The position numbers and the translations under genes were made by a program. Shown in pieces: positions 3,687 to 62,753 of a stretch of DNA of 64,000 nt. The notes beneath the pieces were generated by a model, which searched no databases, was not told the origin of the DNA, and saw only the letters and a program-made list of their open reading frames with translations. The DNA lies in contig NZ_JACYHB010000002.1 of NCBI RefSeq assembly GCF_014837295.1, forward strand, positions 124,001 through 188,000, in the 5' to 3' direction. This DNA comes from Cellulosimicrobium arenosum. GTDB lineage: Bacteria; Actinomycetota; Actinomycetes; Actinomycetales; Cellulomonadaceae. The first letter of the stretch is position 1; each line of letters opens with the position of its first letter.

Positions 3687-4642
3687 CGTCCGCTCCCGTC
3701 GGTCGGCTGGTCCCCGGTGCCCGACGCCGGTGCCCCGCCCGCGTCCGTCGCCTGTCGTCCGCCGTGGCCGGGCCACACGCCGACGTGGTCGGTCTCGAGC
3801 GCGAGCCGGACGCGGTCGCGCAGGTCGAGGCTCGCGACGAAGTCGGGCGGGAGCTGGAGCCGGCCGACCCGGTCGAGGACCGCGAACTCCTCCGCGACGT
3901 GCCGCTCGGAGCCGTGCTCGTCGAGCTCGGTGCGCCGCAGCACCTCCGTGGACGTACGCCCGTCACGGATCTGGACGGTGCGGCGCACGTGGTCGGACAC
4001 CGTGGGGTCGTGCGTGACGATGAGGGTGGTGACGCCGAGCTCGGCGTTCATGGCGCGCATGGCCTCGAGCACCTCGACCGACGTCGCCTCGTCGAGCTCG
4101 CCGGTGGGCTCGTCGGCGAGGAGCACCCGCGGCGCGTTCGCCACGGCGACGGCGAGCGCGGTGCGCTGCTGCTCGCCGCCGGACATCTGGTCGGGTCGAC
4201 GGTCGCGCACGTGGGAGATCTCGAGCAGCTCGCACAGCGCGTCGACCCGCGCGGCCCGCTCGGGAGCCGCCCGGTCGCCGGCGAGGGTGAGGGGCACCGC
4301 GACGTTCTCGGCCGCCGTCAGGTACGGCAGGAGGTTGCGGCTCGTCTGCTGCCAGACGAACCCGACGGTGTGACGTTGGTACCGCACCCGTTCGCGACGC
4401 CCCATGGTCAGCAGGTCGGTCCCCGCGACGACGGCGGAACCGCCCGTCGGCCGGTCGAGGCCGGACAGGATCGTCAGCAGCGTCGACTTGCCGGAGCCGG
4501 ACGCGCCGACGATCGCGACGAGCTCGCCCGGCTCGACGCGCAGGTTCAGCCCCTGCAGCGCCTGCACCTCGACACCGTCGGCGGAGAAGATCCGCACGAG
4601 GTCCAGGCACAGGATGTCCGGGCCCGCAGCACCCTGGGTCAT
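3683..4642 (-). CDS. ABC transporter ATP-binding protein (MacB/LolD-like), 319 aa
   Basis: Second ATPase of the FtsX-type ABC cluster. Walker A GASGSGKST, signature MSGGEQQRTALAVAVAN, Walker B VLLADEPTGELD and the D-loop are intact. About 90 residues follow the core ATPase, more than in LolD (about 230 residues), and may bind a partner. ATG 4642 has a good AGGAGA ribosome site that overlaps the end of the upstream permease gene. A second ATG 15 bases further up lacks such a site. Two non-identical ATPases beside two permeases suggest either a heterodimeric ATPase or two exporters in one operon. Confidence 0.9.
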   Translation of the reverse strand: MTQGAAGPDILCLDLVRIFSADGVEVQALQGLNLRVEPGELVAIVGASGSGKSTLLTILSGLDRPTGGSAVVAGTDLLTMGRRERVRYQRHTVGFVWQQTSRNLLPYLTAAENVAVPLTLAGDRAAPERAARVDALCELLEISHVRDRRPDQMSGGEQQRTALAVAVANAPRVLLADEPTGELDEATSVEVLEAMRAMNAELGVTTLIVTHDPTVSDHVRRTVQIRDGRTSTEVLRRTELDEHGSERHVAEEFAVLDRVGRLQLPPDFVASLDLRDRVRLALETDHVGVWPGHGGRQATDAGGAPASGTGDQPTDGSGR

Positions 4643-15155: not shown

Positions 15156-15261
15156 GGGTTTACCCTTCAGGCCCGGCGCCGGTCGGGCGCCTGCTCCGTG
15201 TGGGACGACAGATCACTGTAGGCCACCGGAGGTCGGACTCCAGCATCGTCCGTCCGAGCGC

Positions 15262-47820: not shown

Positions 47821-50800
47821 TCACGCCGCGTAGCGCGGCGCCATCGACTCCATCTGCTGCAGGACGAGGACGATCGCCTCGGGCTGCTTGTCCGGCGGGT
47901 ACCCGTGCCTGATGAGCAGCCGCTTGATCGACGACCGCAGCTTGGCCCGCACGTCGTCGCGCACCGTCCAGTCGGTCTTCATGTCGCGGCGCACGACGGC
48001 GACCAGGTCGCGCGCGATCTGCGCGAGCACCCCGTCGCCCAGCACCTCGACCGCGGAGTCGTTGGTCGCCACGGCGTCGTAGAACGCGAGCTCGTCGCGG
48101 CTGATCGGCGGATCGAACCGTTCGCCGCGCGTCGCCTCCTCGGCGACCTCGCGCGCCAGCTCGACGAGCTCCGCGATCACCTCCGCAGACGTGAGGTTGG
48201 AGTTCACGTACTTGGTCATGACGGCCTGGAGCCGTTCGGAGAACATCTGCTGTCGTGCGAGGTTGCCCTGGGTGAGTCGCCGGGACTCCTGGGTCACGAG
48301 CGCGCGCAGCGCCTCGATCGCGAGCTGCGGGTTCGGCGCGCCCTGGGCCTTGGCGAGGAACTCGTCGTCGAGCTGGTCCAGGCGCGGGTGCGGCAGGCCG
48401 GCGGCGGCGTAGACGTCGAGCACCTCGCCGGACGTGACCGCCGTCGCCATGAGCTGGTTGAGGAGGCGCTGCACATCATCGGGCACGGGCTCGCCGCTCG
48501 CCTGCCGCGCCTCGGCGTCGAGCTTGCCGACGCTGACGCGCACGTCCTCGTAGAAGCGCGCCTCGTCCGCGACGTCGGCGAGCTCGTCCGTGCGTCCGGC
48601 GATCGCCCAGGCCCTGGACAGTGCAGCGGCCCGACGGCGGAACTCCCCCTCCCGCGTCTCGTCGCCCTCGTCGGTGGGCCGGTTCCCGGGGGTGTGCGGG
48701 CTCCGCAGCCAGTCGGCGGTCGCCCAGAGGGTGTCGAGGTAGGCGCGACCCGACCCGGCACGCTGCGCGGCGGCGAGGCGCTCGCGCCAGCGCGACGGTT
48801 CCAGGAGCGAGCGCAGTTGCTCGACGAGCTCGCGCGCGACGTCGGCCGCGTCCTCGACCGTGCGGCCCACCGGCCGCGCGCCCTGGTCGCGCGCCGTGTA
48901 CTCCGCGAGCGCGGCGCGCAGGTTCTCCGCGATGGGCGCGGACGCGACGAGCAGGCCGGCGTTCTTGCCGCGGAAGGTGCGGTTGACGCGCGCGAGGGTC
49001 TGCATGAGCAGCGCGCCGCGCATGGGTCGGTCGAGGTACAGAGTGTGCAGGGGCGGCGAGTCGTAGCCCGTGAGCATCATGTCCTTGACGATCACGACCT
49101 CGAGCTCGTCGTCGGGGTCCTTGAGCCGCTGCTTCACGACGGCGTTCTCGGAGTCCCGGCGCACGTGGTCCGCGACCGGGGGCTGGTCCGCAGGCGTGCC
49201 CGAGTAGACGACCTTGATGCGCCCGGCGTACAGGTCGTCCGCGTGCCAGTCGGGGCGCAGGGCGACGATCTCGTCGTACAGGCGGGCGCAGATGTCGCGA
49301 GTCGCACCGACGATCAGCGCCTTGCCGGGAGCCGGCTCCGCGGCGCTGGGCTTGCGGGACGTGCTGCGTACGAGCTCTCCCATCGCCTCGCGGCGGGCCT
49401 CCCAGTGCGCGACGACGTCCGTCGCGAGCTCGCGCAGCCGGGCCGGCGCGCCGTAGACGGCGTTGACGACTGCGACGGTCTTCTCGATGCGCGCGCGCTC
49501 GGCGTCGTCGAGCCCGACGGTCACCTCGTCGGCGGCGGCGTCGAGCGCCTCGGCGTCGAGGTCTTCGGCGAACGCGACCTTGACCAGTCGTGACTCGAAG
49601 TAGACGGGGACGGTGGCGCCGTCTTCGACGGCCCGCGTGAGGTCGTAGGTGTCGATGACGGACCCGAACACCTGCTCGGTGTTGCGGTCCGCGGTCGAGA
49701 TCGGCGTGCCGGTGAAGGCGATGAGGGTTGCGTTGGGCAGCGCGTTCTTCAGGTGCCACGCGTACCCGTCGAGGTCGTCGTAGTGCGACCGGTGGGCCTC
49801 GTCGACGACGAGGATCACGTTGCGACGCTCGGACAGCACGGGGTGCTTGGCGCCCCGTCCCTTCTCCTCCGCCGTGAGGCCGAACTTCTGCAGCGTCGTG
49901 AAGTAGATGCCGCCCGTGGTGCGGGCCGCGAGCTCGTCGCGCAGCTCCGCGCGGCGCTTGATCTGCCGCGGCTCCTCGGTGAGGAGCTGCGACCGCGCGA
50001 ACGTCCCGTAGAGTTGCCCGTCGAGCTCCGTACGGTCGGTGACCACGACGATCGTGGGGTTGAGGAGCTTGGGGTGGCGCGCGACGTGCGCCGCGTACAG
50101 CTCCATCTCCATGGACTTGCCCGACCCCTGCGTGTGCCACACCACCCCCGCGCGCCCGTCGGTCTCGACGGCCTGGACGGTCGCCCCGACAGCCTTCGTC
50201 ACCGCGAAGTACTGGTGCGGCTTGGCGACGCGCTTGGCCAGCCCGTCCTCGCCCTCGTCGAACGCGACGAAGCCGCGCAGGAGCTGCACGAACCGCTGCG
50301 GGTTGAACAACCCGTCCAGTGACACCTCCAGCGGTGTCGCGGCCGTGACCTCGCCCTCGGTGACGTCGTCGGTAATACCTAGCGCGGTGCCGGCCACCCC
50401 GCCGGCCGCGCCCGACGGACCGACGGTGCGGCCGTCGTCGTCCACGTTCCAGGGCGCGTAGTGGTTGAGCGGTGTGAACGGCGTCCCGTACTTCGCGACG
50501 ATCCCGTCGCTGACGAGCGTGAGCACGCAGAACCGGAAGACCATCGGCAGCTCGCGCACGTACGTGGTGAGCTGCGCGTGCGCGGCGGCGACATCCGCGC
50601 GCGCGGATCCGGCGTTCTTCAGCTCCATCACGACGACGGGCATGCCGTTGAGGTAGAGCACGATGTCGAACCGGCGCTCCACGTCCCCCTGCACCACGCG
50701 CACCTGGTTGACCGCGAGCCACTCGTTCTCGTCCTCGCGCGCCGAGACCAGGCGGATGCTGGGCGTCTGCTGGCGTCCGTCCTCGGTGTAGGTGATGCGG

Positions 50801-51129
50801 TAGCCGTCGACGAGGACGTCGTGGATGCGCTTGTTCTCCGTGATGGCGTCCTGCGACGTGGGCCGCAGGACCTCGACGAGCGCCTGCTCCAGGTAGTCGC
50901 GCGGCACGTCCGGGTTGAGGCGCCGCAGCGCGGCGCGCATCCGGGACGGGATCGTGAGCTCGGCCCACGACTCGCGCTGCGGCAGCGGCTCGCCGCTCGG
51001 GGAGTACCCCGGATGCCCGACGGCGGTGGCCACCCCCGGCGCGATCGCGCGGCCCTCGAGGGGGAGCCACCCGATCTCGGCCAGGTGGTCGAGGGCCAGG
51101 TGCTCCCAGTCGGACTCGGTGCTGCGCAT
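47821..51129 (-). CDS. hsdR: Type I restriction enzyme, R subunit
   Basis: Motor and nuclease subunit of a type I restriction system, 1102 residues. The nuclease site is visible as FDIVLYLNGMPVVVMELKNAG (D...ELK). The helicase core has Walker A HTQGSGKSMEM, the DEAH box LVVDEAHRSHYDD, IAFTGTPI (motif III) and a C-terminal helical domain. ATG 51129 has a GGAGGAACC ribosome site. The matching hsdM and hsdS lie 6 kb away on the same strand. A Fic gene sits just upstream. Confidence 0.96.
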   Translation of the reverse strand: MRSTESDWEHLALDHLAEIGWLPLEGRAIAPGVATAVGHPGYSPSGEPLPQRESWAELTIPSRMRAALRRLNPDVPRDYLEQALVEVLRPTSQDAITENKRIHDVLVDGYRITYTEDGRQQTPSIRLVSAREDENEWLAVNQVRVVQGDVERRFDIVLYLNGMPVVVMELKNAGSARADVAAAHAQLTTYVRELPMVFRFCVLTLVSDGIVAKYGTPFTPLNHYAPWNVDDDGRTVGPSGAAGGVAGTALGITDDVTEGEVTAATPLEVSLDGLFNPQRFVQLLRGFVAFDEGEDGLAKRVAKPHQYFAVTKAVGATVQAVETDGRAGVVWHTQGSGKSMEMELYAAHVARHPKLLNPTIVVVTDRTELDGQLYGTFARSQLLTEEPRQIKRRAELRDELAARTTGGIYFTTLQKFGLTAEEKGRGAKHPVLSERRNVILVVDEAHRSHYDDLDGYAWHLKNALPNATLIAFTGTPISTADRNTEQVFGSVIDTYDLTRAVEDGATVPVYFESRLVKVAFAEDLDAEALDAAADEVTVGLDDAERARIEKTVAVVNAVYGAPARLRELATDVVAHWEARREAMGELVRSTSRKPSAAEPAPGKALIVGATRDICARLYDEIVALRPDWHADDLYAGRIKVVYSGTPADQPPVADHVRRDSENAVVKQRLKDPDDELEVVIVKDMMLTGYDSPPLHTLYLDRPMRGALLMQTLARVNRTFRGKNAGLLVASAPIAENLRAALAEYTARDQGARPVGRTVEDAADVARELVEQLRSLLEPSRWRERLAAAQRAGSGRAYLDTLWATADWLRSPHTPGNRPTDEGDETREGEFRRRAAALSRAWAIAGRTDELADVADEARFYEDVRVSVGKLDAEARQASGEPVPDDVQRLLNQLMATAVTSGEVLDVYAAAGLPHPRLDQLDDEFLAKAQGAPNPQLAIEALRALVTQESRRLTQGNLARQQMFSERLQAVMTKYVNSNLTSAEVIAELVELAREVAEEATRGERFDPPISRDELAFYDAVATNDSAVEVLGDGVLAQIARDLVAVVRRDMKTDWTVRDDVRAKLRSSIKRLLIRHGYPPDKQPEAIVLVLQQMESMAPRYAA

Positions 51130-51169
51130 GGTTCCTCCGTGGCGACTGCGCCGGTCATCGGCTGGTCGT

Positions 51170-51186
51170 GAGCCTAGTTGGTGGTC
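51170..51186 (-). promoter_or_regulatory. hsdR promoter element shared with the hsdM-side gene
   Basis: GAGCCTAGTTGGTGGTC (plus-strand reading) differs at only two of 17 positions from the element at 62167-62183. On the minus strand it contains TAGGCT, a TANNNT-type -10, which would start transcription about 35 nt before hsdR. Confidence 0.6.
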
Positions 51187-51267
51187 AGGTTCGTGATCAG
51201 CGTGCGCGATCGCCCGACGCCGAGCCATCCGCGCGCCGATATCCCGGGTTGTCGCGCGCCAAGTTCA

Positions 51268-52458
51268 TCAACCCGTCCGGCGATGCGCGCGGTCGGCGAA
51301 CCGTTCCATCGCCTCGATGACCTCGACCGCCTGCCAGACTCGGTCGCGCGCCCCGCGACCGATCTGGTCGAGCACCCCGTCCTCGACCAGCCGGTCGATC
51401 GCCGACTGGGCGTTCGCCATCGTGACACCGAGAAGCTCCGCCGCGAGGCGCGAGTCGATCACGGGTCTCTCGACGAGAGCGTCCGCAAGCCGCCAGGCGG
51501 AGGCACCTCTCCGCGCGCGGACGCTCGTCGCCCACCGCTCGCGGGCCGCCGAGACGTCGTCCATGAGGAGGCGAGCTCCCTGCAACGCCGGGAAGACCGC
51601 CTCGCACACGCGCACGACGATCGGTACCGGATCGCCGGTCCGGTAGGCGGTGAGGGCGGCGAAGTACCTGTCCGTCTCCGCGAGCAGACCAGCTGAGATG
51701 GGCACGACGACGTGCCGGGTCAGAGCCGCATGGCGGAGCTGAGCATGCATCAGTGCGCGCCCGGTCCGGCCGTTGCCGTCCGGAAACGGGTGGATGTTCT
51801 CGAACTGTGCGTGCGCGACGGCCACCTGGGCCAGAGCGGGTAGGTCATCGCGCGCGACAAAGCGCATCAGGTCTTCCATGGCGTCGGGTACCAGTGCGGA
51901 CCGCGGCGCGACGTAGTCTGCACCGTGCGGGCTTCGGGCGGAACCCCCGATCCACACAGCCGAGTCACGCCACTGCCCGGCCGCATCCGGCATGTGGTCC
52001 CTCATCAGCACACGATGCATCGCCAGGATGGCGTCGGTATCCAACCGGTCGGCGACGTCGAGCGCACGCGTCATGGCCCCGACATTGGCCACGATCTCGT
52101 CCGCGTTGGCTCGCCCACGGCGACCGAGCTCCGCCAACGCTATGGCTTTGGGAGACGACGTCAGGTTCTCGATCTGGGAGGAGCTCGCCGCCTCTGTCCG
52201 CAGCAGGAGCGACGCGAACGACATCAGCGAGCCCAACGACTCCCCGTCGAGGCGAGCGATCTCCGCGCTCGCCTCGGCGACCAGAGCCGTCGTCGCCCCG
52301 TCGAGGCGGAGCTCGGCGTCGGCGATCCGCGCGGGAAGGGCTGCCTCGTAGGGCCCTCGTCGGTGGCTGCGACCGGTACGTGGGCCGTACTCGGCGTCCG
52401 ACGACTCCCACGCGAGAGCCTCGGTCCCGAAGGCGGGCCACGTCGGATCCGATGCCAT
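51268..52458 (-). CDS. Fic-domain AMP-transferase-like protein, 396 aa
   Basis: Fic proteins attach AMP to target proteins. The catalytic motif HPFPDGNGRTGR (His223) matches HPFXXGNGRXXR exactly. An N-terminal inhibitory-helix motif SSQIEN (S93...E97-N98) matches (S/T)XXXE(G/N), so it is of the self-inhibited class with the antitoxin helix in the same chain. The C-terminal 80 residues form a winged-helix-like segment (LAAELLGVTMANAQSAIDRLVEDGVL). ATG 52458 lies six bases after a TANNNT -10, a leaderless layout. It is on the same strand as hsdR, 138 bp upstream of it. Confidence 0.92.
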   Translation of the reverse strand: MASDPTWPAFGTEALAWESSDAEYGPRTGRSHRRGPYEAALPARIADAELRLDGATTALVAEASAEIARLDGESLGSLMSFASLLLRTEAASSSQIENLTSSPKAIALAELGRRGRANADEIVANVGAMTRALDVADRLDTDAILAMHRVLMRDHMPDAAGQWRDSAVWIGGSARSPHGADYVAPRSALVPDAMEDLMRFVARDDLPALAQVAVAHAQFENIHPFPDGNGRTGRALMHAQLRHAALTRHVVVPISAGLLAETDRYFAALTAYRTGDPVPIVVRVCEAVFPALQGARLLMDDVSAARERWATSVRARRGASAWRLADALVERPVIDSRLAAELLGVTMANAQSAIDRLVEDGVLDQIGRGARDRVWQAVEVIEAMERFADRAHRRTG

Positions 52459-57124: not shown

Positions 57125-58423
57125 TCACCGCAGCGTCGACCCTTCGACAGTGGTCGGGGTAGCGGCGGGGGTCGGCGTCATGGCGCCCGGTTCCGAGGTG
57201 GAAACGGACTCCGGCAGGCTCCCCGACTCGATCGCGTCCACCGCGTCGCGCACCCGCAGCCGCCCCGACATGAGCTGCGGTAACAGCGCGTCCCGCATCG
57301 CCGTGAGCGCGCGGTTCTCCGTCAGCGCGGCACTTGCTCGGGCATGCAGCACTCGCGCAGTCTCGTTGAAGCGAGTCATCACTTCCGGCGCCGCAAGTCG
57401 CACCGGCAGCTTCTTGAAGTTGCCGCGCGAGAGCTCCATGAACGTGGCGCCATTCGCGTGATCGAGGAACTCGCCCACTCGGCTACGCATCTCGTGGAAG
57501 AGCCAGTACCGTAGCGATTCATCCAGCGGCTCGACCACGATGAATCCTTGGTTCACCGCCATCGGCGCCTCGGCGAGTGCGAACGCTCCGATTGTCGCTC
57601 GTGATGTCATGAAGATGGCGCCGGGGTCGTAGAGAGCCGAGGAGATCGACTGGAGGCCAGCTTCCGAAATCGTGCGCTTCGTCGATGAGATGTACGGACC
57701 GGGGAGTGCCGTGACGTCAGTCGGCGTGAGCCACAGCACGTCTCCGACCCAGTACTCCGATACGGCAGACTTTGGCGTCCCACCGCCGCCGACGCGTGCA
57801 ACGTCTGCGAACGTCTGCGCCGAGAATTCGAGTCCGTGGACCGCGCGCATGAAGATCGAAGAAGCGAGGTCGTCGGCGGTGGTGGCGAGGCGGGTGTTGG
57901 CCGCGATCTTTTCGTCGAGCGCACCGAGCACGTCCGCAATCGCCTCTTGCCCAGTTCGCGACGGAAGTCTGAAAGGGAACCGTAAGAAGTCGTCTCGGCT
58001 GAGGTCGAGGTTTGTGGTCCCGGTCCCCAACGCCTTGCAATGTGCACGGTAGGCAGGCGAACGCAGGAGCCAGTAGAGGTATCGCTGGTCGACCAGCGCG
58101 TCGTCGACGTCGAGACGGATCGTGTCTTGTGTGAGTCGCGCGCTACCGAGTTCAACTGGGACCATCGCCACTGCGCCCAGCAGATCGGCCGCGTGAGTCA
58201 CGTCCTTGAGCGACACGTACAGGTCGCCCGGTCCCAGGAGGATGTTCGCTGCGGTTGGTCCACCATAGGTGCGGAGGTTTTCACCGCGGAACCCGCCGTT
58301 TCGCCCGATCGTCCCGAGCCCGAGAAGCCAGGGGCCCGGCTCATCGAGGAACGCACTCTTGTAGGACTGACCGCGCTGAAGCGATACGAGCTCACGCAAG
58401 GTTGCCGTTCGCCACTCAGCCAT
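57125..58423 (-). CDS. hsdS: Type I restriction-modification specificity subunit
   Basis: Sets the DNA target of the R-M complex. The 432 residues hold two target-recognition domains (about 1-155 and 205-360), each followed by a conserved helical spacer. The first spacer begins TGQEAIADVLGALDEKIAANTRLA and the second RFNETARVLHARASAALTENRA. Motif-like ends (DLSRDDFLRFPFRLP and ELSRGNFKKLPVRLAAP) show the internal duplication. A Pro/Thr-rich tail of about 40 residues is extra. The start ATG 58423 overlaps hsdM by 8 bp. GC is visibly lower than in hsdM, as often for exchanged specificity genes. Confidence 0.94.
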   Translation of the reverse strand: MAEWRTATLRELVSLQRGQSYKSAFLDEPGPWLLGLGTIGRNGGFRGENLRTYGGPTAANILLGPGDLYVSLKDVTHAADLLGAVAMVPVELGSARLTQDTIRLDVDDALVDQRYLYWLLRSPAYRAHCKALGTGTTNLDLSRDDFLRFPFRLPSRTGQEAIADVLGALDEKIAANTRLATTADDLASSIFMRAVHGLEFSAQTFADVARVGGGGTPKSAVSEYWVGDVLWLTPTDVTALPGPYISSTKRTISEAGLQSISSALYDPGAIFMTSRATIGAFALAEAPMAVNQGFIVVEPLDESLRYWLFHEMRSRVGEFLDHANGATFMELSRGNFKKLPVRLAAPEVMTRFNETARVLHARASAALTENRALTAMRDALLPQLMSGRLRVRDAVDAIESGSLPESVSTSEPGAMTPTPAATPTTVEGSTLR

Positions 58424-60047
58424 TGACGCGCCCCAGCTGCTCGCGGACGACCTGCTCGAGCCGGCTCGACTCGTCGAACTGCTCGAAGAGGTCCTTGGTC
58501 AACCCGGCGATCTTGTCCTCGATGGGCTCGCCGTCGTCCTCGACCTCGGCGGCGCCGACGTACCGGCCGGGCGTGAGCGCGTAACCAGCGTCTTTGATCT
58601 CGGCAAGAGTCGCGGAGTAGCAGAACCCGGCCTGGTCCTCGTACGTCAGCCCGGCGTCGCGGGCGGACTCGGTGCGGCGCCAGGCGTGATAGGTCCCGGC
58701 GATCTGCGCGATGTCTTCGTCTGACAGCGCGCGCTCGGCGCGGTCGACCATGTGGCCGAGGTTGCGCGCGTCGATGAACAGCACCTCACCGGTGCGGGGA
58801 ATCGAACCCCGGTTCCCTGACGTCTTGTCCTTGGCAAAGAACCACACGCACACGGGAATCCCGGTGGAGCGGAAGAGCTGGGTCGGCAGGGCGACCATGC
58901 AGGACACGAGATCAGCCTCGACGAGCTGGGCGCGGATGTCGCCCTCTCCCCCGGAGTTCGACGACATGGACCCGTTGGCCATGACGACGCCTGCGGAACC
59001 GCCGGGCGCGAGCTTGGACAGGATGTGCTGGATCCAGCCGTAGTTCGCGTTCCCGGCGGGCGGGACGCCGAACTTCCAGCGGGAATCGTCGGTGCTGCGC
59101 GCCCAGTCCTTGATGTTGAAGGGCGGGTTGGACATGACGTAGTCCATCTGGACATCTGCGTGCAGGTCTCGCGCGAACGTGTCGTTCCAGCGAGCGCCGA
59201 GGTTGCCGGACAGGCCGTGGATCGCGAGGTTCATCTTCGCGAGCTTCCAGGTCCGCTCGTTGAGCTCTTGGCCGTAGACGGAGATGGCGAACGGGTCGGC
59301 GCCGTGCCGTTCGAGGAACTTCTCGGTCTGGACGAACATGCCGCCGGAGCCGCACGCCGGGTCGTACACGCGGCCGGAGTAAGGCTCGAGCACCTCGACG
59401 AGCACGCGCACGACGCTGGGCGGCGTGAAGAACTCGCCGCCGCGCTTGCCCTCGGCGCGCGCGAACTTCTCGAGGAAGTACTCGTACACCTCGCCGAGCA
59501 GGTCGCGGGCCTTGGACACGCCCTCGCCGGTGAAGCGCGCGGAGCTGAACAGGTCGACGAGCTCGCCGAGCCGGCGCTGATCCACACTGTTCGAGTTGAA
59601 GATCGTCGGCAGCGTCGCCGCGAGCGACGGGTTGGAGCCCATGATGTGCGCCATCGCGTCGTCGACGAGCTCGCCGATCGACGCGCCCGGCTCGTCGGGC
59701 GTCGCGGCCCGACCTTTGGCGTGCTGCGCGAGGTAGCCCCACCGCGAGCGCGGCGGCACCCAGAACACCCCGGCGCGCCGGTACTCGTCCAGGTCCTCGA
59801 GCAGGGGCGCGGCGTCGTCCTCGTTCAGCCCGTCCGCGACGCACTCGGCGAGGATCGCGGAGCGTCGCTCGGCGAACGCGTCCGACACGTACTTGAGGAA
59901 CACCAGCCCGAGGATCACGTCCTTGTACTGGCTCGCGTCCATAGAGCCGCGGAGCTTGTCCGCGGCCTTCCACAGCGTGTCCTTGAGCTCCTTCATGGTG
60001 GTCGCCGTGCTCGGCGTCGCCACGACCTGCTTCGTCCTCGGTGGCAC
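58416..60047 (-). CDS. hsdM: Type I restriction-modification N6-adenine methyltransferase subunit
   Basis: Methylates adenine in the target and, with HsdS and HsdR, forms the restriction complex. SAM motif I is YDPACGSGGMFVQTEKF, catalytic motif IV is VMSNPPFN, and the N-terminal helical HsdM_N domain begins MKELKDTLWKAADKLRGSMD. GTG 60047 is chosen over ATG 59996 because a GAGGAAGAGAG site precedes it; this adds 17 residues, giving 543. Its end overlaps hsdS. The degenerate methyltransferase-like gene ends 41 bp upstream. Confidence 0.95.
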   Translation of the reverse strand: MPPRTKQVVATPSTATTMKELKDTLWKAADKLRGSMDASQYKDVILGLVFLKYVSDAFAERRSAILAECVADGLNEDDAAPLLEDLDEYRRAGVFWVPPRSRWGYLAQHAKGRAATPDEPGASIGELVDDAMAHIMGSNPSLAATLPTIFNSNSVDQRRLGELVDLFSSARFTGEGVSKARDLLGEVYEYFLEKFARAEGKRGGEFFTPPSVVRVLVEVLEPYSGRVYDPACGSGGMFVQTEKFLERHGADPFAISVYGQELNERTWKLAKMNLAIHGLSGNLGARWNDTFARDLHADVQMDYVMSNPPFNIKDWARSTDDSRWKFGVPPAGNANYGWIQHILSKLAPGGSAGVVMANGSMSSNSGGEGDIRAQLVEADLVSCMVALPTQLFRSTGIPVCVWFFAKDKTSGNRGSIPRTGEVLFIDARNLGHMVDRAERALSDEDIAQIAGTYHAWRRTESARDAGLTYEDQAGFCYSATLAEIKDAGYALTPGRYVGAAEVEDDGEPIEDKIAGLTKDLFEQFDESSRLEQVVREQLGRVNG

Positions 60048-60088: not shown

Positions 60089-62161
60089 TCACGAGCCGGG
60101 CCCATCCTTGCGCATGCGTACGACACCCGTCGTCACGCCGTCGGCCAGCGTCGTCGCGAGCTCCGCCAGGTGCGCCAGCTCGCGCCGCGCGCGGACCTCC
60201 CCGGTGCGGACGCGCGCGAGGGCCGCGGCGACGTCGTCGGCCTGGTCGGCGGGCACGACCCTCACCTCCCACGACGGCCACCGGGTCCCCCGGGCCTGCG
60301 CGGCGACGTCGGGCGCCAGCACCTCGGCCACGACCCGCCCGTCCTGCCCGACGGCGCCCGGCGCGTCCTCCGGCTCGCGCGACCCGAGCCGCAGCACCCG
60401 GGCGGGCCACGCGACCACGGAGAAGCCCTCCTCGTCCACGAGGGCGGCGGGCCGCGGCGTCGTGGTGTAGACGACGTCGCCCGGCTCGGTGAGGCGGCCC
60501 GCGGGGTAGCGGGCGGCGAAGGTCATCCGGTCGACGACGCGCTCCCCGGGCTCGGTCTCGCCGCACAGCTCCGGCACGCCGAGCACCCGGACCTCGCCCG
60601 TGGGCACGTCGCCCGAGCCGCGCACGTCAGCGACGTCGAGCCGGTTGCCGGGCACGCGCCGCACGATCCCGCGCTCGACGAGCGCCCCGAGCGGCACGCG
60701 GCGTACCGGCGCGGCCGGCCCGCGTTCGACCCGCACGTCGAGCGGCGGTCGGGGTGCGGCGTCGAGCAGGGCCACGAGCTCGCCGGCCCGTACCGCCGCG
60801 GCAACCGCGTCGTCCCGCGCGCCGCTCGCGATCGGACGGGCCGCAGCCACGAGACTGCCGCCGCTCGCGAGGACGTGCCGCGCAGGGACGAACCGCGCGA
60901 ACCGGAACGCGTGGCGTGCGACGTCGTCCGCGGTGCCGAGCGCCGCCAGCACATCGGTGCACAGGTCGTCGACGACCGCGCGCGGGAACCGCCCGCCCAC
61001 AGGTACGACGCCGGAGAGGTCCGCGACCATCGTCCAGCGGTCCGCGATCGGCACCTCCGGGTGCGCGTCGCCCAGGACCCACAGCGCGACGCGCTCGCGG
61101 GGCCGCTCCACGACGAGTCCCGCTGGCAGCAGGACCGCGGCGCGCAGCCGGTCGGTACGCAGGAGCGCGGAGCGGGCGGACTCGGCCTCCCGCGAGGAGG
61201 TCGCGGCGACCAGGGCGGAGGCCGGGCCGACCACGAGCGCCCGCTGCCCGGGCGCGAGGTCGAGCACGACGTCGTCGACCATCGCGAGGACGGCCGCGTC
61301 GTCGAGCGGCCCGGCCCCGACGGGCGGCACCTGGGTGACCACGAGCGCGGGCTCACCCTCCGCGCGCGGGGCACGGACGGACCAGCCGTGCGCGCCGAGA
61401 CGGCGGCGCACGAGCCGGTGCTCGTTCCCGACGGGAACGAGCGCGGTCGGGGTGTCCAGGAGGTCGTCGCGCCCGAGCACGGCCGCGAGCAGGTCCCCGC
61501 AGCCCGGGTACGGGTCGGCCAGAGGCGCGTGGTCCGACGTACCGGCCTGGCTCGCCGCACCCAGCAGCAGGGCGCCGACGACGTCCGCGACCAGCGCCAC
61601 GGCGGACGCCGCGAGCGCCGACCGCGTGAGCCTCGAGCGCCCGGTGCGGAACCGGTCGGCGAGCAGCGCCTCGACGGCCGCACCCGGGTGGTAGGCCGAG
61701 CCGGCGGCGAGGTCGGCGAGCGTGCAGAACATCTCCAGGTGCTCACCCAGGGCGTCGACCTCGGTGAACACCGCGTCGTCGTCCGGGTCGAGCTCGTCGG
61801 CGAGATCCAGGACGTCCTCCGGGGCTAGCGTTCCGAGCGGCTCGTCGACGTACGCCTTGAGGCGCAGAAGAGCGGTCAGGCCGCCGAGCGCGACGTCGTC
61901 GGGCGGGCCCATCGCGTCGTCGAGCGCTGCACGCAGCGCGACGTCGGCGCGGAACGCGGCGTTGTTGCCCAGCCCGGTCGCCTCGACCCAGTCGACGACG
62001 TCCGACGCGCGAAAGCGCGGCGACCCGCCGCGCTGCGACACCGGCGCGGGGAAAGGGCGAGGCCCGTCCGCGTGACGGCGCCGCCACACCGAGACGACGG
62101 GCCGGCGCACGTGGGCCAGTTCCGCGACGTCGGGCAGCGAGAGACGCAGGTCGTCGAGCAT
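60089..62161 (-). CDS. HTH - degenerate N6-methyltransferase-like - specificity-like fusion, 690 aa
   Basis: First gene of the hsdM-side operon. Residues 8-60 are a DNA-binding head (LPDVAELAHVRRPVVSVWRRR, then SPRFRASDVVDWVEATG) as in a known actinobacterial N-6 methylase group. A central region follows HsdM order: a motif I relic DPYPGCGDLLAAVL (216-229), a motif IV relic VVTQVPPV (275-281) where active enzymes have NPP(F/Y/W), and an HsdM-like RAAVLLPAGLV segment. The C-terminal 190 residues resemble an HsdS half (VRVLGVPEL, LTEPGDVVYTTTPRPAALV). It is probably catalytically dead. It reads from ATG 62161, leaderless. Confidence 0.75.
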   Translation of the reverse strand: MLDDLRLSLPDVAELAHVRRPVVSVWRRRHADGPRPFPAPVSQRGGSPRFRASDVVDWVEATGLGNNAAFRADVALRAALDDAMGPPDDVALGGLTALLRLKAYVDEPLGTLAPEDVLDLADELDPDDDAVFTEVDALGEHLEMFCTLADLAAGSAYHPGAAVEALLADRFRTGRSRLTRSALAASAVALVADVVGALLLGAASQAGTSDHAPLADPYPGCGDLLAAVLGRDDLLDTPTALVPVGNEHRLVRRRLGAHGWSVRAPRAEGEPALVVTQVPPVGAGPLDDAAVLAMVDDVVLDLAPGQRALVVGPASALVAATSSREAESARSALLRTDRLRAAVLLPAGLVVERPRERVALWVLGDAHPEVPIADRWTMVADLSGVVPVGGRFPRAVVDDLCTDVLAALGTADDVARHAFRFARFVPARHVLASGGSLVAAARPIASGARDDAVAAAVRAGELVALLDAAPRPPLDVRVERGPAAPVRRVPLGALVERGIVRRVPGNRLDVADVRGSGDVPTGEVRVLGVPELCGETEPGERVVDRMTFAARYPAGRLTEPGDVVYTTTPRPAALVDEEGFSVVAWPARVLRLGSREPEDAPGAVGQDGRVVAEVLAPDVAAQARGTRWPSWEVRVVPADQADDVAAALARVRTGEVRARRELAHLAELATTLADGVTTGVVRMRKDGPGS

Positions 62162-62166
62162 GCGCC

Positions 62167-62183
62167 GAGACTAGTTGGTAGTC
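62167..62183 (-). promoter_or_regulatory. Promoter element of the 690-aa gene, shared with hsdR
   Basis: GAGACTAGTTGGTAGTC (plus-strand reading) matches 15 of 17 bases of 51170-51186. Minus-strand TAGTCT (62168-62173) is followed by six bases and the ATG, a leaderless layout. Confidence 0.65.
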
Positions 62184-62203: not shown

Positions 62204-62223
62204 GCGATAACCCCTCTTATCGC
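62204..62223. promoter_or_regulatory. Inverted repeat GCGATAA-N6-TTATCGC
   Basis: A perfect 7-bp dyad with a six-base spacer in the AT-rich centre of the divergent region between the 690-aa gene and the zinc-ribbon gene. It has the form of a repressor operator, sited just upstream of the shared promoter element. Confidence 0.55.
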
Positions 62224-62269
62224 TTCGCTCATTCGGGCTCCTCCTCTCGCGCTGACACGCTCGTCCTGC

Positions 62270-62303: not shown

Positions 62304-62459
62304 ATGAGCCACGTCCGGTGCCGCTGCGGGTACGTGTACCCGGTCCTGGACGGCCGGGGACTGTGCCCCGCGTGCGTCTCGCTGACGCCGCCGACCCCGC
62401 GAGCCGAGACGGCGGGCGAGGCCGAAGCCCGCCCCGACTCCGAACCCACCACTCCCTGA
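62304..62459 (+). CDS. Small zinc-ribbon peptide, 51 aa
   Basis: A 51-residue protein with two cysteine pairs, CRCGYVYPVLDGRGLCPAC, forming a one-knuckle zinc ribbon, followed by an acidic Pro/Glu tail. ATG 62304 has an excellent GGAAGGAG site. It starts a co-directional cluster with DUF3892 and lipoprotein genes. Similar mini-ribbons occur beside phage and stress genes; function unknown. Confidence 0.75.
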   Translation: MSHVRCRCGYVYPVLDGRGLCPACVSLTPPTPRAETAGEAEARPDSEPTTP

Positions 62460-62471
62460 GAGGACATCACG

Positions 62472-62753
62472 ATGCCGTTCATCCGTCAGGTCCGCGTCGC
62501 TGAACCAGGCACGCACGCCGAGCACGTGGTCGAGGTCCGCTACTCGACCCTCACCACCGGACGGTTGCGGTCCGCGAGCCGCGAGCAGGTGTACGACGCC
62601 GTCCGTGCCGGCACCCGCTTCCGCACCGTCGACGAGGTCACGCACAACCAGGCCGACGTCGTCGCCCGCGTCTCGACCCGCGGCACCCGCTACGTCGCGA
62701 CCGTCGCCAACGGCCGTGAGACCGACAACATCCTGCACCTCCCGCGCTACTGA
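62472..62753 (+). CDS. DUF3892 protein, 93 aa
   Basis: Small cytosolic protein with the DUF3892 pattern: an N-terminal HVVEVRYS-type strand, VYDAVRAGTRFRTV, then YVATVANGRETDNILHLP at the end (the DN-LLxLP signature). GAGAGGA precedes ATG 62472. The domain is widespread in plasmid, phage and chromosome islands and has no established function. Confidence 0.8.
   Translation: MPFIRQVRVAEPGTHAEHVVEVRYSTLTTGRLRSASREQVYDAVRAGTRFRTVDEVTHNQADVVARVSTRGTRYVATVANGRETDNILHLPRY

Follow-up and report, generated by a model that had tools for sequence, protein, structure and literature searches.

The window analyzed here is a stretch of 64,000 nucleotides from Cellulosimicrobium arenosum. At positions 60089..62161 of its minus strand lies a gene for a 690-amino-acid protein, a putative pseudo-methyltransferase regulator made up of an HTH, a dead HsdM-like core, an HsdS-like target-recognition domain (TRD) and a tail helix. 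The genes of a type I restriction-modification (R-M) system follow on the same strand. HsdM (58416..60047) begins approximately 40 bp downstream, matched N6_Mtase with an E value of 7e-111, and has intact DPACGSG and NPPF motifs; its GTG start was set by relatives. HsdS (57125..58423, minus strand; Pfam and PADLOC) is next, and hsdR (47821..51228, minus strand; NCBIfam and PADLOC) lies approximately 6 kb further on. A previous sequence-only reading of this DNA had placed a dead methyltransferase-specificity (M-S) fusion with an HTH as the first gene of an hsd operon, and this was borne out. A SoFic-type Fic gene is present at 51268-52458 between hsdS and hsdR, and Fic genes recur near such operons in some loci.

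The open reading frame and its coordinates were as first read, and the order of HTH, HsdM-like core and HsdS-like tail was confirmed by the AF2 model, VIA and Foldseek. The winged HTH is N-terminal (residues 1-66; 61964..62161, minus strand), with its recognition helix at approximately residues 20-30. An HsdM-like region composed of a helical N-lobe and a Rossmann-like core (residues 67-442; 60836..61963, minus strand; AF2 model and VIA), the HsdS-like TRD (residues 485-640; 60242..60709, minus strand; model, Foldseek and VIA) and a long C-terminal helix (residues 641-677; 60131..60241, minus strand; AF2 model) follow. No significant match to Pfam, NCBIfam or PADLOC was obtained for the protein, and none of 21 regulator-family members matched Pfam N6_Mtase at E<=1; PADLOC returned weak MTase_I and PDC-M06B matches in some relatives. 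The full-length AF2 model was built from alignment A1 of 21 relatives (pLDDT 82.9, pTM 0.61). Fold prediction and superposition on HsdM, which had been proposed as a check, returned an HsdM-like fold at a VIA Z of approximately 21. The core model (residues 66-442) scored Z 21-22 against type I M subunits (3lkd, 7bto, 3khk and 2okc), with values of 21.8 for 3lkd (326 residues, rmsd 4.2), 21.6 for 3khk and 21.1 for 2okc. The best Foldseek match of the full model was 7eew (E 1.2e-13), a single-chain M-S methylase of Vibrio vulnificus that, like the regulator, carries the M core and an S-like part in one chain. Residues 77-690 of the model scored Z 19.7 against 7eew with an rmsd of 30.7, and the two domains are therefore differently placed. 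Unlike the intact 7eew, the regulator has an additional HTH and dead motifs. The N-terminal 72 residues modelled alone formed a winged HTH (pLDDT 88.8), for which the top VIA rows were mostly MerR/BldC/excisionase/Nu1-type domains at Z <=6.1; because these nearest structures score low, the HTH is claimed as a domain type and not as a family. The HTH model had no Foldseek match at E<=0.001. In the window protein Pfam HTH_17 reached an E value of 0.042, under the cut-off, and a Pfam HTH was matched in 3 of 21 relatives (best HTH_17 E value 8.8e-4).

Alignment placed the motif I (SAM) position at residues 216-222 (61496..61516, minus strand), reading a degenerate DPYPGCG, and the catalytic motif IV position at residues 277-280 (61322..61333, minus strand), reading QVPP. 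The earlier readings of DPYPGCGDLL (residues 216-225) and QVPP were thus correct. The proposed alignment of homologues to see whether QVPP is conserved was also performed, and canonical motif IV ([ND]PP[YFW]) was absent in all 111 aligned regulator homologues (L044 was not scorable). Catalytic motif IV is lost family-wide, and its loss is therefore a family trait and not a sequencing accident. As a control, the adjoining HsdM keeps NPPF in 106 of 109 loci. SPPW in L088 and L090 matches the pattern a few residues downstream of QLPP, off the motif IV position. The motifs have decayed by degrees: motif IV is xLPY or xLPF in a Streptomyces-type clade, where motif I is sometimes near-intact, and QxPxxG in the clade of the window, and a short clade (approximately 615-640 aa) has lost both motifs. 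Motif I is nearly intact in L110, L112, L117, L124 and L165. These few relatives, together with the xLPY or xLPF retained in the Streptomyces-type clade, speak for a still-active methyltransferase with unusual motifs; given that every homologue lacks [NDS]PP[YFW] at motif IV and that the short clade is without both motifs, such an enzyme is extremely improbable.

The regulator profile aligned by hhalign to that of nine actinobacterial HTH-N6_Mtase proteins with 99.4% probability (E 1e-21, columns 4-568 of 689), and in this alignment DPYPGCGDLL fell on DPACGTGSLL and QVPP on NPPF. These proteins (PADLOC MTase_I PDLC03037) have the same architecture and a full-length profile match that includes the HTH; they differ in their recognizable N6_Mtase and several intact motifs, whereas the window protein has no N6_Mtase match. 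All nine are matched by PDLC03037 and, significantly, by Pfam N6_Mtase. Comparison with the profile of the co-encoded HsdM was not significant (E 0.11), so kinship to HsdM rests on the fold and the HTH-N6_Mtase family. The earlier statement that active relatives keep NPP(F/Y/W) was only partly upheld, as several of 11 HTH-only relatives keep NPPF, DPPF or DPPY and DPACGTG and the others lack them. No N5-N6-N5 palindrome was present upstream of any of these 11, and an operator common to the HTH-N6_Mtase relatives was rejected for this reason. HTH-N6_Mtase proteins such as those of L071-L081 are common across Actinomycetia, with motifs intact in some and decayed in others.

The regulator is closely tied to one kind of HsdM. 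HsdM was found <=200 bp downstream of the regulator in 104 of 112 loci; the gap was 0.8 kb in 2 and larger in 3 (one a broken frame), and 3 loci had no hsdM (one of them lying at the end of its contig). In the window's family, 28 of 200 genomes carry the regulator, and every genome whose HsdM shares at least 65% identity with that of the window is among them (27 genomes; in G013 hsdM is split in two). HsdMs at 52-57% identity occupied 7 places in 6 of the 200 genomes, all without the regulator. Among 394 genomes drawn across the class, 100 matched at E<=0.001 and just 17 places reached 1e-40, the weaker matches being mostly HTH-only. The regulator was found in 19/345 and 36/251 genomes of two other families and in 2/22 and 5/35 of two more. 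A scan of genome contigs yielded 21 loci, including Arthrobacter, Cryobacterium, Isoptericola and one record titled Sporosarcina (Bacillota). This last locus has actinobacterial-type genes and 77% HsdM identity, and either transfer or contamination is possible. Five plasmid records, four of them typed conjugative, carry the regulator, in every case annotated as a hypothetical protein, and the two plasmid loci that were read have the order gene-hsdM-hsdS-hsdR. A phage reservoir was considered and rejected, the single match having 14% coverage. In two genomes (L176 in G949 and L177 in G935) hsdM is 2.4-3 kb from the regulator and the operator described below is absent; control may be of another kind there. 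L103 (G509) has regulator and operator without hsdM; a Fic gene is next to it on the opposite strand, and the operator is nearer the start.

A candidate operator, GCGATAAGAGGGGTTATCGC, spans 62204..62223 (unstranded) upstream of the regulator gene, with a core of GATAA-N6-TTATC at 62206-62221 that is the only exact match in the 3.95 Mb genome. For the discovery set, 61 loci were fetched, L120 and L121 were dropped for a missing N-terminus, and the window was added, which gave 60 loci. L031-L034 duplicate L007-L010, and L007-L010 were left out of the counts; L044 is frameshifted; A1 contains its downstream piece, and the upstream analysis used the first one, of 88 aa. The site was exact in 49 discovery loci, had one mismatch in 5, was a palindrome with other arms (GTTTA or GTTAA) in 5 and was missing in 1 (L091). 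Of the 52 validation loci, which were found later, 34 had exact sites and 13 had sites with a single mismatch; GTTAA palindromes were present in 2, a site with two mismatches in 1, and no site in 2. A site (exact, with 1 mismatch or with variant arms) was present in 59/60 discovery and 49/52 validation loci, although these are not independent events because the loci are related. The site was absent directly upstream in L091, L152 and L159, and had 2 mismatches in L140; in L091, hsdR precedes the regulator and a 1-mismatch site lies approximately 1.3 kb upstream of hsdR. Fifty dinucleotide shuffles produced no exact site and a mean of 0.12-0.16 windows with <=1 mismatch, and 1 exact match was found elsewhere in these loci, over 1,023,507 bp. 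No palindrome with another spacer length, from 2 to 12, was found upstream of the regulator genes in the loci examined. Each upstream window held one operator site, and a second, repressing operator was not found there. Within the family, the exact site was present in 21/28 genomes with the gene compared to 6/172 without it, and it adjoins the gene in 20 of those 21.

Second copies were seen on occasion. In L118 a copy at 15205-15220, GATAAGGGCCCTTATC, follows hsdR and precedes an AAA_23/SMC-like ATPase gene, and the regulon may therefore reach beyond the R-M operon. One family genome (G147, contig C123) has a second exact site at 4004-4019, approximately 2.8 kb from the first. The palindrome as a target of the R-M enzyme was rejected, as HsdS varies among loci (mean identity 31.9% where HsdM is at least 85% identical) and the palindrome does not. 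A search of open-access PMC papers for four forms of the palindrome found no paper.

Residues of the HTH varied together with the half-sites. Residue 22 was A in 7/7 loci with GTT half-sites and V (one S) in 102/102 loci with GAT-type sites, and residue 19 was T with GTTTA, S with GTTAA, and Q, R, K or E otherwise. In a tree that omitted the HTH columns (111 of 112 rows used), V-to-A at residue 22 and GAT-to-GTT in the half-site switched three times, every time together. Three independent switches are too few for significance in a sign test (p 0.25); two of the seven GTT loci came from the validation set. A rule linking V23P to GGTAA half-sites was rejected because the pattern was not clean. 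Since a recognition-helix residue and the half-site covary, there is good evidence, at the level of sequence, that the HTH reads the GATAA-N6-TTATC palindrome. The specificity-like domain had originally been proposed as the operator reader, and this was not borne out.

The gene divergent from the regulator differs among loci. In the window, two ORFs lie within 62304-62753, one small and zinc-ribbon-like, the other a DUF3892 gene (PF13031, E 1e-11; 62472..62753, plus strand); several loci have DUF3892-like genes in this position. The DUF3892 gene is probably under the same operator as the hsd operon. Other loci have a membrane-anchored small protein, an SMC-like AAA ATPase, or a conserved protein of approximately 475 aa (7 loci: L032, L033, L100, L101, L110, L113 and L115). 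The latter had no Pfam match in the one protein scanned, and a possible nuclease-like motif was noted by eye. The divergent gene of L104 is a DndB match (PF14072, E 2.5e-9).

The palindrome keeps a fixed distance from predicted promoters. In the window a predicted -10 element, TAGTCT (62168..62173, minus strand), is separated from the palindrome by 32 bp and stands 6 bp upstream of the ATG, and the regulator mRNA is likely leaderless. A weak divergent -10-like element, CACGCT (62256..62261, plus strand), is 34 bp from the palindrome on the other side. A TANNNT hexamer was present 31-36 bp downstream of the palindrome in 98/108 loci, at 32-34 bp in 90, compared to 0-5 in background windows. On the divergent side xANNNT was 33-36 bp off in 96/102 (background 4-27), with the full TANNNT in just 22. 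With -10-like hexamers on both sides, the palindrome would therefore sit midway between two divergent promoters. It is placed upstream of the expected -35 position. No strong -35 consensus was found among these promoters, most of which have a weak -35 or none; a -35 with at least 4 of 6 matches was present in 18/98, compared to 3/98 in one shuffle. As a few promoters do have a passable -35, dependence on an activator is not general.

The direction of control was weighed on this geometry. Because the operator distance is fixed and the -35 is poor, the activator reading is favored, and activation of both promoters appears somewhat likelier than repression. An autorepressor, whose bulky M-S bodies, one on each side of the palindrome, would keep both promoters closed until relieved by phage infection or by a loss of regulator, is the less probable direction yet a serious one. 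The known dedicated type I controllers repress, namely RptR (PMC12255303) and a C-type protein at the hsd locus of M. gallisepticum (PMC12707154), as do dual-function type II methylases with a fused HTH (PMC3874152 and PMC12707154); some promoters here carry a -35, and L103, without hsdM, has the site nearer its start. Against repression, the site is 31-36 bp upstream of the -10 in 98/108 loci and is therefore clear of both the -10 and a usually spaced -35, whereas RptR sites overlap the -10 (PMC12255303). The sequence-only reading had suggested an autoregulator that represses. Its autoregulator part is supported by the operon position and the candidate operator, while the site position leans to an activator. 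That the regulator exerts no control over hsd transcription is very unlikely.

The M-S body allows further readings. Over 100 pairs with HsdM at least 85% identical, mean identity was 65.0% for the HTH, 58.4% for the TRD and 57.6% for the core, making the HTH the best conserved domain of the regulator; HsdM itself was at 88.0%, so the core changes far faster. The TRD keeps the pace of the core where HsdS is at 31.9%, and therefore does not change along with the specificity of the enzyme; it is not swapped as HsdS TRDs are. Conserved features include the arginines R249, R253 and R330 and, in the TRD, a stretch reading TEPGD; these could serve dimerization, DNA contacts or protein contacts. Obligate pairing with one HsdM clade, a retained M-S fold and conserved TRD residues would suit an accessory pseudo-M/S subunit of the type I enzyme (for assembly, allostery or DNA tethering) with the HTH secondary. 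This is unlikely given a core that changes much faster than HsdM, a TRD that does not track the swapped HsdS, and an HTH that is best conserved along with its operator; such a role would, in any case, be compatible with regulation. Six genomes that carry the exact site without the gene could point to an unlinked second factor binding the palindrome, with the regulator a decoy or sensor that does not bind DNA at the promoter. Co-occurrence of gene and site, a single site per genome, the covariation of HTH and half-site, and the 11 HTH-only relatives without an upstream N5-N6-N5 palindrome leave this scarcely probable. The dead M-S body might be bait, resembling a type I methylase for anti-restriction DNA mimics of phages and plasmids (Ocr/ArdA type) or for free HsdS/HsdM and thereby resetting transcription of the hsd operon and the divergent defense gene. 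This idea is speculative and rather unlikely; if true, the regulator would sense when the enzyme is attacked or in short supply.

Taken together, the computed support consists of the family-wide loss of motif IV, the place of the gene in the operon, a palindrome that stands at a constant distance from the -10 and is rare in the genome, and the covariation. The reading we prefer is that the protein is quite probably a dedicated autogenous regulator of transcription for the type I R-M operon it belongs to and for the divergent gene. An ancestral HTH-M-S N6-methylase would have lost catalysis and retained its fold. A dimer of the HTH is proposed to bind GATAA-N6-TTATC, and the bound palindrome would sit midway between the hsd promoter and the divergent accessory promoter, with the regulator more likely activating both. 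The dead M-S body may provide dimerization and contact with RNA polymerase or Hsd subunits.

C proteins are small, single-domain HTH proteins. They have a second, repressing site, whereas the regulator has 690 aa and one site. Passages of PMC12707154 describe C proteins as encoded by the first gene of R-M operons, with a palindrome upstream of their own promoter and activation at low level; the operator upstream of its own promoter is a feature that the regulator would share. RptR (PMC12255303) is likewise the product of the first gene of type I R-M operons, with a conserved palindromic site and wide co-occurrence, all of which the regulator has too. It differs in being a 9 kDa, four-helix protein of Gammaproteobacteria with 6-bp sites (TAGCTA repeats) over the -10, compared to GATAA-N6-TTATC 31-36 bp upstream of it here. 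M.EcoRII, M.SsoII and M.Ecl18kI have an HTH fused to a methylase that regulates its own gene, as proposed for the regulator, and a catalytically dead M.EcoRII mutant still represses (PMC12707154). However, these are active type II enzymes, whereas catalysis by the regulator is naturally lost and its operon, of type I, includes a separate HsdM that looks active. The regulator would thus work like C proteins, RptR and the HTH-fused type II methylases, and by the features tested is a member of none. No paper on the protein was found by title or abstract start in open-access PMC, and a search there for MADS mad1 found nothing useful.

Transcriptional control of type I R-M is thinly documented, with RptR and one Mycoplasma C-type protein named in the 2025 paper and review (PMC12255303 and PMC12707154). 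The regulator would be an unrelated further solution, spread through Actinomycetia and plasmids and, if the reading is true, an enzyme turned into the switch of its own system. It offers a concrete operator and recognition code for testing, and would link an R-M operon to divergent accessory genes.
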